Shown here: positions 1 to 6,607 of the stretch, piece after piece
Layout: every line of letters starts with the position of its first letter
Position numbering within the stretch: position 1 is the stretch's first letter
Origin: Anaerolineae bacterium
GTDB lineage: Bacteria > Chloroflexota > Anaerolineae > B4-G1
Assembly: GCA_030612185.1 (NCBI GenBank)
Contig: JAUWOI010000242.1
Location: 1 to 6,842 of the forward strand
DNA length: 6,842 nt
Direction: 5' to 3'
Program-made: the position numbers and the translations under genes
The notes under the pieces: generated by a model
Database searches by the model: none
What the model was told of the DNA's origin: nothing
Seen by the model: only the letters and a program-made list of their open reading frames with translations

Positions 1-432
1 CCCAAGTCCCCGCCAGCGCGGGAGACGCAGATCGCGCACCTGCTGGCACTGGCGGCCCGCTTCGACGTAGACCGGGCCGCGCTGGAAGCGGAGATCGGCA
101 AGCCGCTGGAGGAACTGACGCAGAAAGAGGCCTGCTTCTGGAACGGTCGTTACATGCGCCGCATGGCTGAGGAACGGCCGCCCAAGAGTCCTATTGACCG
201 CAAGCGGGCCTACCTGCCCGAAGGGGTAGATGGCTTCGAACTGGCTTACTTGCAGGAGCAGCAGGAGGCTGGTGTGTCGCTTCACTTCATCCTCTTCGAC
301 GGCCAGGCCTTCGAGGGAACGGTGGTTGGCTTCAGCCCCTACCAGATCACCATCCGCGAGACTGGCGGGGATGAGATCACGCTCAACAAACTTGCCATCG
401 CCTATTACCGCAAGGCCGGAGGTGTAAGATGA
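1..432 (+). CDS. Hfq/Sm-like domain protein, 5' end outside the window
   Basis: The frame is open from base 1, so the gene begins upstream; 143 residues are visible. The internal ATG at 154 has no Shine-Dalgarno sequence and would discard conserved-looking residues. Visible residues 82-137 align with E. coli Hfq (recalled sequence) almost without gaps. They begin with a short helix (YLQEQQEAG), followed by VSLHFILFDGQAFEGTVVGF in place of the Hfq strands [20 protein letters not shown], and a final strand around TLNKLAIAYY at the Sm2 position (Hfq YKHAIS). The Hfq histidine is absent here. Residues 7-30 (RETQIAHLLALAARFDVDRA) resemble the last two helices of an XRE-type helix-turn-helix, as in the next gene, but the DNA-contacting helices would lie outside the window. 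Residues 33-75 are a charged linker. The stop overlaps the next start (ATGA, 429-432), implying translational coupling. An RNA- or nucleic-acid-binding role is inferred from fold resemblance only. Confidence 0.8.
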   Translation, partial: PKSPPARETQIAHLLALAARFDVDRAALEAEIGKPLEELTQKEACFWNGRYMRRMAEERPPKSPIDRKRAYLPEGVDGFELAYLQEQQEAGVSLHFILFDGQAFEGTVVGFSPYQITIRETGGDEITLNKLAIAYYRKAGGVR

Positions 433-878
433 GCCTGGGCGACGAACTGCGCTATCTGCGAGCATTCCACGGCGGCGGTAATCTGCGGGAGATCGAGGAG
501 GAAATCGGCCTAGAGCCCGGCACGCTGCGTTACATGGAACAGTACTACCGCCGCGTGGGCGAGGACGACGAGGTGCTGGCTTCTATCGCCGCCTACTACG
601 ACGTCTCGCTTGGGACGCTACAATACCACCGGGAGCGGTATCGCAAGGCGTTCAGCGGCTACCTGCAACAAGGGCTGGAATCGGGGGCGACGACTCGCTT
701 CGAACTGCGCACCGGCGAGACGCTGACCGGCCGGGTACGCTGGTGGGACCTGGGGGCCTTCGGGTTGGAATCTGAGGCCGGCGTGCCCCTCACCATCGTG
801 CAGCGCCACGCCGTATTAGACTGGGCCGGCACGATAACTAATGACCAACTAGGTCAACAGCAGTCCGGCCAAACCTGA
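429..878 (+). CDS. XRE-type HTH fused to an Hfq/Sm-like domain
   Basis: 149 residues. The start is fixed by a strong Shine-Dalgarno sequence (GGAGGTG, 418-424, 4 bases from ATG) and a 4-bp ATGA overlap with the previous gene. Residues 4-66 fit a five-helix XRE/Cro-C1 domain: LRYLRAF helix, turn at GGG, NLREIEEEIG and EPGTLRYMEQ as the HTH pair, then DEVLASIAAYYDVSLGTL. Residues 67-77 are a basic linker. Residues 78-132 align with Hfq: helix YLQQGLESG, strands RFELRTGETLTGRVRWWD, then TIVQRHAVLDW at the Sm2 position. The QRHA matches the YKHA of Hfq, including the histidine that lines the Hfq pore. YLQxxxExG is shared with the upstream protein, so the two are probably paralogues. The tail (133-149) is polar, Gln-rich and probably disordered. 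Plausible roles are an RNA-responsive transcription regulator or an oligomerising DNA-binding protein. No characterised family of this architecture is known to me. Confidence 0.85.
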   Translation: MSLGDELRYLRAFHGGGNLREIEEEIGLEPGTLRYMEQYYRRVGEDDEVLASIAAYYDVSLGTLQYHRERYRKAFSGYLQQGLESGATTRFELRTGETLTGRVRWWDLGAFGLESEAGVPLTIVQRHAVLDWAGTITNDQLGQQQSGQT

Positions 879-889
879 GAGGTCAAGAT

Positions 890-2266
890 ATGATTGGACG
901 CGCACAGACCGAGGTTCTGCTCAAGCGGGCGCTTTCGCTCTCCTCAGCCAACCTAGCAGACGAGACCGAGGCGGTGCTGCTGGGGTTGGAGGAGCAACTG
1001 ACCCGCTTCGCCAACAATACCAATCACCAGCACGTGGCGGAGACCAACCACTACCTGGTGGTGCGCGCTGCGCTGGGACAGCGCGTGGGCGTGGCAGCGA
1101 CCAACGACCTGACCGACACCGGGCTGGAGCGGGTGGTCGAGGCCGCCGTCGCCGCCGCCAGACTCCGGCCCGAGGATCCCGGCTTCCCCGGCCTGCCGGA
1201 CCCCGCCAGCGTGCCGGAGGTTACCGGTTTCGACGAGGCCACCGCCGGGTGCAGCCCTGCCGAGCGGGCACGGGCTGTGTGCGTGGTCTGTCAGCGGGCG
1301 GAAGGGGCGGGCTGCGTCGCCGCCGGAGCCTTCCGCACCGCTATCCACGAGTGGGCCGTCGCCAACAGCCATGGCCTCTTCGCCTACCATCCCACCACGG
1401 AGGCTGACTTGACGACGGTGGTGATGACCGGCGACAGTTCGGGCTCGGGTTTTGCAGCCGGTGCATCGTGGAAGGCGGCGGAGGTGGACGTGGTCGCGCT
1501 GGGTGAGGAGGCCATCGCCAAAGCGCAACGCAGCCGCAACCCGCAGCCAGTGGAGCCGGGCGTCTACCCGGTCGTGCTGGAGCCCTACGCCACCCACGAC
1601 CTGCTGGCGACACTGAGCACTGCCGCCGGCGCTAACCCTGTGCAGGAGGGGAGAAGTTGGATGAGCGGACGGCAGGGGGAGAGGTTGATGTCGCCGCTCA
1701 TCTCCTTATGGGACGACGGCTGCGACCCTGCTGGCTGGCCTCTGCCCTTCGACTTTGAGGGCGTGCCCCGCCAGCGGGTGGATATCGTGCGCGATGGCAT
1801 TGTCGGGGATGTGGTCTACGACCGGGCGCGGGCGGCCAGGGACGGGCGGGAGTCTACAGGACATGCGCTGCCCGCCGCCAACCCGTTCAATCCCTGGCTC
1901 AACGCTGCCCGGCTTGGCCCGATTCCGCTGCACGCCTTTATGGGCACCGGGGAGAGCCGGCTTGAGGAAATGATAGCCGGGACCGAACGAGGCCTCTACG
2001 TCACTCGCTTCTGGTACACCCGCACCGTCCACCCCCGCGAGGCGGTGATGACCGGGATGACCCGCGACGGCACGTTCCTCATTGAGCACGGCGAACTGAC
2101 GAGACCGGTGCGCAACCTGCGCTTCACCCAGAGTTACGTCGAGGCGTTGGCGGGGACGGAGGCGGTGGGGCGAAAGGCGCGCCGCGTGTGGTCCGACCCG
2201 GGTATCCTCAGCGCGCCCGCTCTCAAACTGGCCGCCTTCAACTTCACCGGTACAACGGGATTTTAG
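890..2266 (+). CDS. pmbA: PmbA/TldE family protein (metallopeptidase-related subunit)
   Basis: 458 residues, about the family's usual length (about 450). The ATG is preceded by AGAGG (878-882, 7-base spacing) and lies 11 bases after the previous stop, so it is likely cotranscribed. The C-terminal half carries the family pattern: SLWDDGCDPAG (272-282), FDFEGVPRQRVDIVRDGIVG (287-306), then STGHALP (322-328) and a late MTGM...IEHGELTRPVRNL stretch (387-410). The HExxxH zinc motif of the catalytic partner TldD is absent; the stretch around 235-260 (THDLLATLSTAAG) has none. This fits the TldE side of the TldD-TldE heterodimer, a cytosolic protease that in E. coli processes microcin B17 and degrades the CcdA antitoxin. 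There is no signal peptide. No tldD lies in the window; it may be upstream or elsewhere. Subfamily and substrate are uncertain, since many bacteria carry several paralogues. Confidence 0.92.
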   Translation: MIGRAQTEVLLKRALSLSSANLADETEAVLLGLEEQLTRFANNTNHQHVAETNHYLVVRAALGQRVGVAATNDLTDTGLERVVEAAVAAARLRPEDPGFPGLPDPASVPEVTGFDEATAGCSPAERARAVCVVCQRAEGAGCVAAGAFRTAIHEWAVANSHGLFAYHPTTEADLTTVVMTGDSSGSGFAAGASWKAAEVDVVALGEEAIAKAQRSRNPQPVEPGVYPVVLEPYATHDLLATLSTAAGANPVQEGRSWMSGRQGERLMSPLISLWDDGCDPAGWPLPFDFEGVPRQRVDIVRDGIVGDVVYDRARAARDGRESTGHALPAANPFNPWLNAARLGPIPLHAFMGTGESRLEEMIAGTERGLYVTRFWYTRTVHPREAVMTGMTRDGTFLIEHGELTRPVRNLRFTQSYVEALAGTEAVGRKARRVWSDPGILSAPALKLAAFNFTGTTGF

Positions 2267-2501: not shown

Positions 2502-4061
2502 ATGTTCATCAAGACTTTCAACTTACGACGAGTTTCCTTGTCTACCTGTCTACTCGTCTACTTGTCTACTTGCCTACTCTTGGTGTTAGGGGTGGCAGGC
2601 TGTGCTGGAACGACCGCGCCTTCTGAGATACCCTCCGGTCCCATCATCGCCCTGGAACCGTGCCATCTCTCGGCGCCCGGCTCGTCCGCGCGGCTGCCCG
2701 CAAAGTGCGGCACACTGACTGTCTACGAGGATCGCGCCGCGTTATCTGGACGCCAGATCGTCCTGAAGATCGCAGTGCTCCCTGCGCTCAGCCGCGACCC
2801 TGCCCCGGACCCGCTATTCTTCATCACCGGTGGGCCAGGCGGCGCCGCCACTCAGGACTATCTGCCGGTGCGGTCTGCCTTCCAGCGCATCAACCAGGAT
2901 CGCGACATCGTTCTGGTGGACCAACGGGGCACGGGCCAATCGCACCCGTTGGACTGTCCGCCGTCAGAAGACACGCTCTCCTCCTCCGACGATGAGGTCC
3001 TGGAGCAAGAGCTGACCCACTGCTTAAACCAGCTTGACGCGGATCTCAATCTCTACACGACCTCGATTGCGATGGACGATCTGGACCAGGTGCGGGCCGC
3101 CCTGGGCTACGACAAGATCAATCTGTACGGCGTCTCTTACGGGACTAGGGCCGCGTTGACCTACCTGCGCCAGCACGAAGACCACGTACGGACGGTTATC
3201 CTGGACGGTGTGCTCCCGCAGGACGAGCCACTGGGCATCAGCATCGCCAGCGACGCCCAGCGCGCGCTTGACCTGATCTTTGAACGCTGCGTCACCGATA
3301 GTGCCTGCGCCCAGGCTTTCCCCGACCTGCGCCAGGATTTCAAATCGCTCCTGGAGAGTCTGGATCGAGGGCCGGTCGCAGTGAGACTGTCTCATCCTAC
3401 AACCGGTGAGCCCACCGAGGTCAGTTTCACACGGGAGCAGTTCGCTCAAACCATGCGCTTGCTCAGTTACTCCCAGGAAACTGTGGCGCTGCTGCCTCTA
3501 CTTATCTATACCACTCAGACCACCGGCGACTTCAACCGCCTGGCTGCGCAACACCTGCTCGTCAGCCAGCAACTGGAAGGCAATATCAGCGAGGGGATGA
3601 GCCACTCGGTGGTGTGCGCGGAAGATGTGCCCTTCTTTTACGAAGGGGAGGAGTTTGTGGGCAATAGCGATGCGGAAAAGCAAGCCTACCTGGGGGAGTG
3701 GTACCGCGAACTGGAAAAAGTCTGCGCGCTCTGGCCCGTGACTGAGGTTTCTGCAGACTTCAAAGCACCGGTCACCTCGGATGTCCCAGTGTTGTTACTT
3801 TCCGGCGAGGCCGACCCCGTGACGCCGCCCTCAAACGGCGATCAGGCGGCCAGGACGCTCCCCAACAGTTTGCACCTGGTCGCGCCGGGCCAGGGACACG
3901 GCATTATCTTGCGGGGTTGCGTCCCTCGTATCGCCACTGAGTTCATCGAGAGCGGCACGGTCCAGGAACTGGACACTGCTTGCATCAGTGAGATCCGTCC
4001 GATGCCGTTCTTTGTCAACTTTGCCGGCCCCAGCCCTGAGGCGAATGAGGTAAAACCATGA
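2502..4061 (+). CDS. S33-type alpha/beta hydrolase lipoprotein (tripeptidyl aminopeptidase-like)
   Basis: 519 residues; the ATG is preceded by AAGGA (2491-2495, 6-base spacing). The N-terminus is a lipoprotein signal peptide: basic start (K4, R9, R10), hydrophobic core 13-31, lipobox VAGC with the lipidated Cys at 34. The mature enzyme would therefore sit outside the cytoplasmic membrane. Alpha/beta-hydrolase landmarks are in order: oxyanion-hole GGPGG (110-114), DQRGTGQS (140-147), nucleophile elbow GVSYG with Ser212, a lid region, VVCAEDVPF (370-378), then the C-terminal TAP-like part with Asp438 (SGEADPVTPP) and His466 (GQGHG). The Ser-Asp-His triad is intact. Family members remove N-terminal residues or tripeptides (proline iminopeptidase, Streptomyces Tap/SlpD). 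Cys residues around 54/69 and 152/174 could pair outside the cell. It ends in a 4-bp overlap with the ATPase gene, suggesting work linked to that transporter. The exact substrate is unknown; an esterase role is possible. Confidence 0.92.
   Translation: MFIKTFNLRRVSLSTCLLVYLSTCLLLVLGVAGCAGTTAPSEIPSGPIIALEPCHLSAPGSSARLPAKCGTLTVYEDRAALSGRQIVLKIAVLPALSRDPAPDPLFFITGGPGGAATQDYLPVRSAFQRINQDRDIVLVDQRGTGQSHPLDCPPSEDTLSSSDDEVLEQELTHCLNQLDADLNLYTTSIAMDDLDQVRAALGYDKINLYGVSYGTRAALTYLRQHEDHVRTVILDGVLPQDEPLGISIASDAQRALDLIFERCVTDSACAQAFPDLRQDFKSLLESLDRGPVAVRLSHPTTGEPTEVSFTREQFAQTMRLLSYSQETVALLPLLIYTTQTTGDFNRLAAQHLLVSQQLEGNISEGMSHSVVCAEDVPFFYEGEEFVGNSDAEKQAYLGEWYRELEKVCALWPVTEVSADFKAPVTSDVPVLLLSGEADPVTPPSNGDQAARTLPNSLHLVAPGQGHGIILRGCVPRIATEFIESGTVQELDTACISEIRPMPFFVNFAGPSPEANEVKP
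2538..2577 (+). repeat. Five 8-bp tandem units (TTGTCTAC-type) inside the signal peptide
   Basis: The units read TTGTCTAC, CTGTCTAC, TCGTCTAC, TTGTCTAC, TTGCCTAC. Three units equal eight codons, so the peptide repeats as LSTCLLVY-LSTCLLLV and forms the hydrophobic core of the lipoprotein signal. Eight is not a multiple of three, so gaining or losing a unit would shift the reading frame of the hydrolase gene. Confidence 0.9.
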
Positions 4062-4792
4062 TTGAAGTCAAGAATCTGCACAAATCCTTTGGCGACGTGA
4101 TCGCCCTGCAAGGCGTGACGTTTACCGCCCCCGATGGTCGGATCACGGGGCTGCTTGGGCCCAACGGCGCTGGCAAGACGACTACCCTGCGCATCATCTA
4201 CACTGTGCTCAAGCCAGATCGTGGGACGGCAAATGTGGACGGCTACGACACGGGGTGCGCCGCGCGCGAGGCCCAGCAGCGGATCGGCGCTCTGCCCGAT
4301 AGTCATGGACTCTATCCCCGTCTCACCACACGCGAGAACATCCGCTACTACGGCCGTCTGCAAGGCCTGAAGGGTGCCGCTTTGGAAAAGAGTATAAACG
4401 CTCTGATCAAAATGTTGGACATGCAAGAGATCGCTGACCGGCGCACAGAGGGGTTCTCGCACGGCGAGAGGCTCAAGGTTGCCATTGCCCGCGCCCTGGT
4501 GCACAGTCCCCAGAACGTGCTGCTCGACGAGCCGACCACCGGGCTCGACGTGATGAGCACCCGTAACATGCGGACGTTCATCCGTCGCCTGCGAGACGAG
4601 GGCAAGACTGTGCTCTTCTCCAGCCACGTGATGCAGGAGGTCTCGGCGCTGTGTGACCACATTGTGGTGATCGCCCTCGGCAAGATAGTGACCAGCGGCA
4701 CACCTGATGAACTACGGCAGACTACCGGCCAGGCTAACCTGGAAGATGCCTTCGTGACGGTAATTGGTTCGGAAGAGGGGCTACAACGATGA
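4058..4792 (+). CDS. ABC transporter ATP-binding protein, NatA-like
   Basis: 244 residues; ATGA overlap with the hydrolase gene, with GAGG (4047-4050) 7 bases before the ATG. It is a complete nucleotide-binding domain: Walker A GPNGAGKTT (34-42, Lys40), signature FSHGERLK (133-140, an SHGE variant of the usual SGGQ), Walker B NVLLDEPT (153-160, Asp157, catalytic Glu158), D-loop GLD (162-164), H-loop His190 (FSSHVMQE). The Q-loop region reads ALPDSHGLYPRLT, without the usual Gln; NatA-type ATPases have a similar GLYxRLT stretch. The cytosolic ATPase would power the permease encoded next, most likely as a dimer. NatAB of Bacillus exports sodium, but this subfamily is broad (drugs, peptides, lipids), so the substrate is open. 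Confidence 0.95.
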   Translation: MIEVKNLHKSFGDVIALQGVTFTAPDGRITGLLGPNGAGKTTTLRIIYTVLKPDRGTANVDGYDTGCAAREAQQRIGALPDSHGLYPRLTTRENIRYYGRLQGLKGAALEKSINALIKMLDMQEIADRRTEGFSHGERLKVAIARALVHSPQNVLLDEPTTGLDVMSTRNMRTFIRRLRDEGKTVLFSSHVMQEVSALCDHIVVIALGKIVTSGTPDELRQTTGQANLEDAFVTVIGSEEGLQR

Positions 4793-5964
4793 TCGAACAC
4801 ATCGGCATCATTTTCAAGAAAGAAGTGATAGACAATTTGCGCGATCGGCGCACGTTGGCCGGATCGCTGTTCTATCCCTTGATCGGCCCCTTGCTGATGG
4901 CTCTGCTGTTCATTGTGATGGGGCGGACTATGTCTACTCAGGCCGAACAGCCCCTGGCCCTGCCGGTGGTGGGTGCCCAGAATGGGCCGGCGCTGATCCA
5001 GTTCCTGGAGCAGAACGGGGCCGAAATCCAGCCTGGGCCGGACAACCCGGAGGCGAGCGTGCGCGCCGGGGACCACGATGTGGTGCTCGTCATTCCCGCA
5101 GATTATGAGAAGAACTTCAGCACGGGACGTCCGGCGACGGTGCGCCTCATAGTGGACGATTCGCGCCAGTCGGCGTCCATCTCGGTAAACCGCGCCTCCA
5201 GATTACTCCAGGCGTACAGCCAGCAGATCGGCACGCTACGGCTGCTGGCGCGCGGCGTGGATCCCAGCCTCGTGACGGCGCTGGCAGTTGAACGTGCTGA
5301 CGTCTCCACGCCCCAGAGCCAGGCGGCATTTTTCCTGAACATCATGCCCTACTTCATCATCTTCTCGGTCTTTATCGGCGGGATGTATCTGGTCATTGAT
5401 ACGACGGCCGGCGAACGGGAGCGCGGTTCGTTGGAGCCGCTGCTGATCAACCCCGTGGCCCGCAGTGAACTCGTGCTGGGTAAACTGGCCGCCGCGTTGG
5501 TCTTCACTGTGATTGGAGTTATCGAAACGCTGGTTGGGTTCCTGATCATGCTGAATGTCATGCCCACAGAGTCCTTTGGCGTCCAGATCAGCCTGCACCC
5601 CTCGGCGCTGGGCGTCATTTTTCTGATCGCGGTCCCAATGATGCTGCTGGCCGCTGCCTTGCAGATGATCATCGCCACCTTCACCCGCAGTTTCAAGGAG
5701 GCGCAGAACTATCTCACATTCCTCCCGCTGATCCCGGCATTGCCTGGCATGTTCCTGGCCTTTGTGCCGGTCAAGGTCAAACTGTGGATGATGCTGATCC
5801 CCACCTTCGGCCAGCAGTTGCTCATCAACCAGGTGATGCGGGGCGAACCGTTGGATGCGTTCAACGTGACCGTCTCGGCCGCTGTGACCGCTGTCGCCGG
5901 CGTGGCGCTCACCTTCGTCGCGATCAAACTCTACGAACGGGAGCGTGTCCTTTTTGGGCGGTAA
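4789..5964 (+). CDS. ABC-2 type permease, NatB-like
   Basis: 391 residues; ATGA overlap with the ATPase gene, with GAGG at 4775-4778 as ribosome-binding site. Topology read from the sequence: a short amphipathic N-terminus (KKEVIDNLRDRR, 10-21), membrane segment about 24-45, an outside domain about 46-178, then about five more segments (181-203, 233-256, 272-297, 308-328, 359-381). The cytosolic loop DTTAGERERGSLEPLLINPV (204-223) is the conserved coupling motif of NatB-type permeases that contacts the ATPase. A large domain between segments 1 and 2 is typical of this group. It would form a homodimer with two copies of the ATPase. Export is the usual direction; the substrate is unknown. The adjacent lipoprotein hydrolase and lectin-like anchor suggest a cell-surface role. 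Confidence 0.93.
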   Translation: MIEHIGIIFKKEVIDNLRDRRTLAGSLFYPLIGPLLMALLFIVMGRTMSTQAEQPLALPVVGAQNGPALIQFLEQNGAEIQPGPDNPEASVRAGDHDVVLVIPADYEKNFSTGRPATVRLIVDDSRQSASISVNRASRLLQAYSQQIGTLRLLARGVDPSLVTALAVERADVSTPQSQAAFFLNIMPYFIIFSVFIGGMYLVIDTTAGERERGSLEPLLINPVARSELVLGKLAAALVFTVIGVIETLVGFLIMLNVMPTESFGVQISLHPSALGVIFLIAVPMMLLAAALQMIIATFTRSFKEAQNYLTFLPLIPALPGMFLAFVPVKVKLWMMLIPTFGQQLLINQVMRGEPLDAFNVTVSAAVTAVAGVALTFVAIKLYERERVLFGR

Positions 5965-5974
5965 TCTGTGAAGT

Positions 5975-6002
5975 GATCAACGACCAATGACAAATGACCA
6001 AA
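5975..6002 (+). repeat. 7-bp tandem repeat (GACCAAT-type) across a start codon
   Basis: Four units: GATCAAC, GACCAAT, GACAAAT, GACCAAA. The ATG at 5987 is formed inside the run and the first codons (MTNDQ) are repeat-encoded. A change in unit number would alter the distance from upstream signals or create a new frame. The 9-mer AATGACCAA also occurs at 840-848, near the end of the XRE-Hfq-like gene. Confidence 0.75.
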
Positions 6003-6607
6003 GCCGCTGGCTGTGGAGGGTCACGCTGGGGTTGCTGGCGCTGGTGGTAGCGGGTGCGCTGGTGCTGATCGTCGCGCTGGCGCTGGGCTGGAACAGCCCC
6101 CGCCCTACCCGCCCTCCCGACTGGGGAGCGCCTGGCCTGCCTTTGGACCTGAAAGCCTCTCAAAACGAAACCACGACGTCGCTGCTGGGCCATCCCAGCG
6201 GCGATTTCACTTTGGAGGTAGAGGCTATCCCACTCTCCGGCCCCGACTTCAACGGCTACGGCCTGGTCTACCGCGCCCAGGATTCCGCCCGCTACTACGT
6301 CTTCGCCGTCGGGGGCGACGGCTACTACGCAGTCCTGCAGGTGGCCAATGGCGGGGAAATGGCATTGGTGGACTGGCAGCAGTTTCCCCACGTCCATCGA
6401 GGCCAACAGCCCAACCGGCTGCGCGTGACATGCGAAGGCCACGCCTGCCATTGCTACATCAATGACGAGTATGCCGCCACCGTCGAGGACGGCACCTGGC
6501 TGATGGGGGACGTGGGGCTGTGGGTGCGCAGTTTCGGAGACGAGGACGTGGCGGTGCGTTTTCTGGACGTGTGCGCATGGGAAGTAAAACCTCCAGGTCT
6601 TCCATAG
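5987..6607 (+). CDS. Membrane-anchored DUF1080/LamG-like jelly-roll protein
   Basis: 206 residues. The ATG lies 22 bases after the permease stop with no good Shine-Dalgarno sequence, so translation may depend on coupling. Residues 12-34 form one membrane segment preceded by basic residues, placing the C-terminal part outside. After a Pro-rich linker (38-53), residues 60-198 look like a concanavalin-type sandwich of the DUF1080 (3-keto-disaccharide hydrolase-like) group: GDFTLEVEA, then FNGYGLVYRAQDSARYYVFA, GDGYYAVLQVANGG, PNRLRVTCEG, CYINDEYAATVEDG, GDVGLWV, VAVRFLDV. Such domains often bind glycans. No catalytic residues can be claimed. Cys149, 154, 156 and 196 are outside and could form disulfides. 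The domain ends near the stop. A stretch reading VYLPLVLR follows in another frame at 6607-6630, so an older C-terminus may have been longer. Confidence 0.88.
   Translation: MTNDQSRWLWRVTLGLLALVVAGALVLIVALALGWNSPRPTRPPDWGAPGLPLDLKASQNETTTSLLGHPSGDFTLEVEAIPLSGPDFNGYGLVYRAQDSARYYVFAVGGDGYYAVLQVANGGEMALVDWQQFPHVHRGQQPNRLRVTCEGHACHCYINDEYAATVEDGTWLMGDVGLWVRSFGDEDVAVRFLDVCAWEVKPPGLP

Follow-up and report, generated by a model that had tools for sequence, protein, structure and literature searches.

Hfq is usually regarded as a free-standing RNA chaperone. The family has been split into classic and mobile clades, as described in passages of the paper on FlgV (PMC11607428). In cyanobacteria, Hfq works with PilB and EbsA, and the relevant passages of PMC8092324 and PMC7690835 name no identified RNA substrate as of 2021. 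An Hfq-like Sm fold also occurs inside helix-turn-helix (HTH) regulators, according to parts of the PafBC paper (PMC6789036). Here, a gene pair is described that lies at the start of a 6,842-nucleotide (nt) contig of an Anaerolineae bacterium from the phylum Chloroflexota (JAUWOI010000242.1; the whole contig is referred to as the window). Both genes encode an HTH head of DNA-binding type followed by an Hfq/Sm domain, and such proteins may couple the control of genes on DNA with RNA or with ring-shaped assemblies.

Domain organization of the gene pair

The two overlapping frames reported in the initial annotation, 1-432 (open at the 5' end) and 429-878, were found as given, with ATGA at 429-432 in common. 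The part of gene 1 in the window is 100% identical to a full-length protein of 240 amino acids (aa), here called P0121, to which the residue numbers of gene 1 refer.

1..432, + strand: gene 1, incomplete at the 5' edge; last 143 aa of a protein of 240 aa with the order HTH, linker, helical module, Hfq
22..174, + strand: middle helical module of gene 1 (P0121 residues 105-155)
232..417, + strand: Hfq/Sm domain of gene 1 (P0121 residues ~175-236), helix plus five strands
429..432, + strand: ATGA in the sequence, overlap of the gene 1 stop and the gene 2 start
429..878, + strand: gene 2, a 149-aa HTH-Hfq protein
429..623, + strand: XRE-type HTH head of gene 2 (residues 1-65)
636..824, + strand: Hfq/Sm domain of gene 2 (residues ~70-132); PF21979 Hfq_1, 27.5 bits at a cut-off of 27

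The stop/start overlap suggests that the two genes are translationally coupled.

The HTH of gene 1 is located at residues ~1-62 of P0121 and thus outside the window. The XRE-type domains PF01381, PF12844 and PF13560 are listed for P0121 in precomputed Pfam annotations, and the HTH of gene 1 exceeds its Pfam cut-off (HTH_3, 40.6 in relative L110). Extending the left edge by means of P0121 supplied an N-terminus with an XRE-type HTH and corrected the earlier view that the visible start of gene 1 is the tail of one. This stretch is a separate helical module, with helices at residues 105-116, 122-129 and 138-155 in the predicted structure of P0121; the part of it in the window does not match any Pfam family above its cut-off. 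Its sequence follows the pattern AR..QI..LL.LA.RF...ALE..GKPL.ELT..EA, and we take similar stretches to occur in phage recombination proteins. The HTH head proposed for gene 2 is borne out by a match of the window copy to the transcriptional regulator family phrog_8 (E 1.7e-4) and by HTH_31 in gene 2 of relative L006 (27.7, cut-off 27). Gene 2 of the window itself has no Pfam HTH match at E <= 1, and its head is the low-confidence part of the structural model, with block values of the predicted local distance difference test of 56-70.

That both proteins contain an Hfq/Sm fold, with Hfq as the closest sequence family, is supported by Pfam cut-offs, by profile searches against sequences of the Protein Data Bank (PDB) and by predicted structures. 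Gene 2 of the window passes the Hfq_1 cut-off, and the models nearest to its domain are of the cyanobacterial type (Hfq_1, Hfq_rel_Cyano). Gene 1 of the window stays below the Pfam cut-offs (13.7 bits for Hfq_1, 12.4 bits for Hfq), and the cut-off of the classical family PF17209 is passed by gene 1 of L110 (27.3), G210, G154 and, barely, G106. In L110, a distant relative, gene 1 passes the cut-offs of both HTH_3 and Hfq, and gene 2 passes that of Hfq_1. Stricter models are not reached: for the Hfq equivalog TIGR02383 (61.7 bits) no match of a window protein is listed, with scores of 28.0 for gene 1 of L110, 25.0 for L006 and 23.7 for L117, and NF047718 (52 bits) gives 25.3 and 28.5.

Profiles built from close relatives only find Hfq at E 0.016 (gene 2) and 0.22 (gene 1). 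With diverse profiles, gene 1 finds XRE repressors and Bacillus subtilis Hfq (E 3.9e-5) among PDB sequences, and the top five rows of gene 2 are the Hfq proteins of Caulobacter, Anabaena, Synechocystis, Aquifex and Bacillus. An unrelated barrel scoring better, which the initial annotation had named as its refutation, was not encountered; among the best 60 of 122 and the best 60 of 66 rows of these diverse profiles, no barrel family other than Hfq appears at E < 0.05. In structures predicted for the monomers, both proteins form an alpha helix followed by a five-strand Sm barrel that matches solved Hfq, clearly so for gene 1, where Hfq is the nearest family by fold as well as by sequence. The Hfq domains of the two proteins can be aligned, and the proteins share the YLQxxxExG motif pointed out earlier (YLQEQQEAG in gene 1, YLQQGLESG in gene 2). 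Distant relatives keep little of this motif beyond 'YL' in gene 1 or the leucine in gene 2.

Recurrence of the pair and other Hfq genes in Chloroflexota

The two genes form a genuine pair that is met repeatedly across the phylum Chloroflexota. At E <= 0.001, 212 homologues of gene 1 and 315 of gene 2 were found, and the search for the same pair in other genomes recovered both genes in all 48 loci inspected (44 plus four further), so that a chance arrangement can be dismissed. They are encoded on one strand in every locus and are directly adjacent in 47. In the remaining one, L103, they are separated by an extra frame (gap 1192), and the end of the contig truncates gene 1. Of 42 loci measured, 32 have a distance of exactly -4 between the genes, and in 41 it does not exceed 60 nt.

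Long gene 1 matches are present in 42 of 298 genomes of the class, 37 of which were taken with their flanks into the locus counts. A further 32 match in the HTH part only, giving 74 of 298 with a match; one of these is G549 (E 2e-15, 240-aa frame). The other five of the 42, G611, G488, G532, G565 and G513, have an Hfq_1 match beside gene 1 and are outside the 48 loci. Among 400 genomes spread over the phylum, with at most six candidates per genome scored, eight have a long gene 1 match; 284 have a match of some kind, and among the rows listed the large majority of these genomes match in the HTH alone. Gene 2 occurs in 4 of 13 genomes from the order of G210 and in 5 of 5 from the order of G289.

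Searched with the gene 2 profile, all three gene 1 copies tested yield both an HTH and an Hfq part, and the reverse search succeeds in one of three. This cross-matching supports common descent of the two Hfq domains and is consistent with a tandem duplication long ago. Two separate captures of Hfq domains are possible as well, since the L110 proteins differ in their affinities, that of gene 1 being closer to classical Hfq and that of gene 2 to the cyanobacterial type.

The genomes were also searched with Hfq families, blind to the pair. In the class, the Hfq_1 cut-off is exceeded in 18 of 298 genomes, with the match inside the pair in all 18. For PF17209, 12 of 19 rows lie inside the pair, and the cut-off is passed in 3 of 298 genomes, each time in other frames (81, 90 and 157 aa). 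Across the phylum, the PF17209 cut-off is passed in 4 of 221 genomes; in three of them it falls in gene 1 of the pair, one counting only when neighbours in frame are included. Hfq outside the pair and above the Pfam cut-off is thus rare in the group (3 of 298 class genomes and 1 of 221 phylum genomes), in support of the initial annotation, which had classical Hfq reported missing from several phyla including Chloroflexota. Whether the pair replaces classical Hfq cannot be read from mutual exclusion: none of the three PF17209 genomes is among the gene 1 matches, which is uninformative because with 3 and 42 of 298 genomes a chance overlap of under one is expected.

Genomic neighborhood

Downstream of the pair, the window contains the following genes.

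890..2266, + strand: TldD/PmbA-family metallopeptidase gene, directly 3' of gene 2
2502-4061, same strand as gene 2: TAP-like alpha/beta hydrolase
4058-4792, same strand: ABC ATPase, named by the look of the sequence only
4789-5964, same strand: ABC permease, likewise named by the look of the sequence only
5987-6607, same strand: 206-aa protein without Pfam match at E <= 1

The 206-aa protein has a hydrophobic N-terminal stretch and closes the hydrolase/ABC run. In the gap after the Tld gene lies a perfect 15-nt inverted repeat (arms 2399-2413 and 2455-2469, 41 nt between them). A 17-nt match to one arm in relative L080 (E 0.053) is probably due to chance. Rfam gave no match in the window.

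Among the 44 loci, 9 have a Tld gene on the same strand within 600 nt downstream and 6 have one on each side, and ScpB lies within 600 nt upstream in at least 14. The upstream counts are lower bounds, as upstream sequence is missing for the window, L103 and L006 and limited to 244 nt for L091, and all neighbor distances are rough (stop-to-stop frames). In L085 and L083 the pair is nested between two Tld protease genes, with ScpB ~1.4-1.5 kilobases upstream. TldD/E and ScpB thus recur without being constant and the other neighbors vary, so that no single pathway is indicated and a function was not assigned from the context. No operator stood out when the upstream regions of four relatives were read by eye.

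A phage origin was rejected on the basis of searches in viral contigs, phage records and viral models. One conserved pattern gave 41 stretches in viral contigs with no relative confirmed, and gene 1 of one relative as query found none in phage records. Foldseek matches among viral models are HTH-only, Hfq-like, or long with low template modelling scores. Viral models also include proteins of the mycobacteriophages Phabba and Tonenili that are named Hfq-like domain-containing. Assignment to a defence system was likewise discarded, with PADLOC matching the HTH part of gene 1 only and nothing in gene 2.

Possible function and relation to known systems

The best explanation, to which we assign a probability of roughly 0.45, is a constant pair of HTH-Hfq proteins with XRE heads of DNA-binding type that act together as a multivalent regulator. 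The two proteins would be made together and would assemble, probably with each other, via the edges of their Sm domains in the manner of Hfq subunits. A single Sm core, which may bind RNA or a protein partner, would then be surrounded by several DNA-binding heads, each attached by a flexible, basic linker. Such a complex could be a multivalent regulator or a nucleoid protein and keep the RNA or the partner at chosen DNA sites.

The composition of the linkers and tails is consistent with nucleic acid binding. The gene 1 linkers combine basic charge with a high Pro content (36 of 44 measured). Gly/Arg/Pro- and RG-rich composition is common in RNA-binding proteins; in the order of G289, five of five genomes have a gene 2 tail of the Gly/Arg/Pro-rich kind, and the gene 1 linker contains 12-13 RG pairs in three genomes and none in the other two. 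The gene 1 linkers of L146, L147 and L148 from this order are 262-291 aa long, with repeats like NFQDRPQRGP and YGN/DRG that are very like low-complexity parts of eukaryotic RNA-binding proteins.

Two observations weigh against the proposed regulator. The monomer structure check suggested in the initial annotation returned an Hfq/Sm match for both proteins, with the match of gene 2 being weaker and tied with a designed SH3 barrel. Furthermore, most rim, distal and proximal RNA-contact residues are changed relative to E. coli Hfq, with the Sm2 core kept. The contact positions, except for the proximal-face Sm2 loop, are those that we take to be established for Hfq. The loop is described as an RNA contact in passages of the PafBC paper (PMC6789036). 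In E. coli numbering (37 gene 1 rows and 44 gene 2 rows, 7 of 44 gene 1 copies being unfitted), gene 1 retains L12, G34, an aromatic residue at 39 and at 42, and the lysine at 56. Its rim arginine positions are mostly Q (R in 7 of 37), E/Q and G, and it has S/G/T at 40, P at 41, E at 8 and L at 57. The Sm2 and position 8 counts of gene 1 come from a separate alignment with 43 of 44 copies fitted, in which L089 has KIA. Gene 2 retains D40 (44/44), R at 56 (44/44) and H57 (40/44), has mostly G/A at 42 and lacks a rim. These changes call for caution in describing the pair as an RNA chaperone; judged from sequence, an RNA-binding ring would be a fair hypothesis.

A more far-reaching version of the multivalent regulator is doubtful. 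It would consist of mixed rings of Hfq type whose DNA-binding heads sit on long, basic, partly RG-rich linkers. As a riboregulatory hub in bacteria, it would bind RNA together with many DNA sites, replace stand-alone Hfq in these Chloroflexota and perhaps build nucleoid condensates.

Among the rivals, a WYL-like regulator deserves most attention, improbable as it is. The Sm-type domain would then serve dimerisation or ligand sensing in a two-protein transcription factor, as in PafB/PafC, and there would be neither a ring nor a role as RNA chaperone; the WYL domain of DriD is indeed among the structural matches of gene 2. However, Hfq is the nearest family by sequence for both genes and for gene 1 also by fold. 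A WYL domain proper was ruled out, as neither the window proteins (E <= 1) nor ten relatives (E <= 0.1) gave a WYL match in Pfam; for the relatives no WCX is listed either. It is also unlikely that the pair is a protein scaffold like cyanobacterial Hfq, in which an Sm ring binds a protein partner that the HTH heads place on DNA. The proximity of the gene 2 domain to cyanobacterial-type models, the altered RNA-contact residues and, in the passages on PilB and EbsA cited above, the action of cyanobacterial Hfq without an identified RNA substrate speak for it; however, the disordered parts, which are basic and in one order rich in Gly/Arg, would point to nucleic acid, and no partner gene is as constant as the pair, ScpB and Tld included. 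Convergence of unrelated small beta-barrels (SH3, PRC and the like) on a resemblance to Hfq is highly improbable, since window gene 2 and relatives pass curated Hfq cut-offs and the diverse-profile searches favor no other barrel.

Few of the sampled Chloroflexota genomes have a free-standing Hfq by Pfam cut-off, and here an Hfq domain survives inside a protein of DNA-binding type. If it binds RNA, a transcription factor and an RNA chaperone would be joined in one molecule; if it does not, the pair would be a second case, besides WYL, of an Sm fold inside a transcription factor. Either outcome is informative, and the genes are small enough for direct testing.

The claim that the architecture is undescribed holds to the extent that no paper on it was found among those listed in searches of the open-access PMC literature, which covered neither subscription papers nor supplements; as a combination of HTH and Sm fold it has a precedent in the WYL regulators. 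Those regulators (PafBC, DriD), as far as the cited passages describe them, likewise join an HTH to an Sm-fold domain in a two-protein regulator, whereas the pair has no WYL sequence match and its Sm module is Hfq-related. XRE-family repressors (CylR2, HTH_3) resemble the N-terminal head of gene 1 but have no Hfq domain. Cyanobacterial or 'mobile' Hfq (PF21979, NF047718) shares with the pair the PF21979 match of gene 2 and W-x-D at Sm1, as in 3hfo and 3hfn; the solved chains comprise 70-72 aa, whereas here an HTH precedes the domain and the NF047718 cut-off is not reached. Classical Hfq (PF17209; TIGR02383) has the same helix and five-strand Sm fold, the NG/DG...G turn and an Sm2 motif with a basic residue. 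In contrast to it, the domain is here fused behind an XRE head and present in tandem, has lost rim and distal residues and scores below the equivalog cut-off. The pair is therefore read as a new architecture within the known Hfq/Sm fold family.
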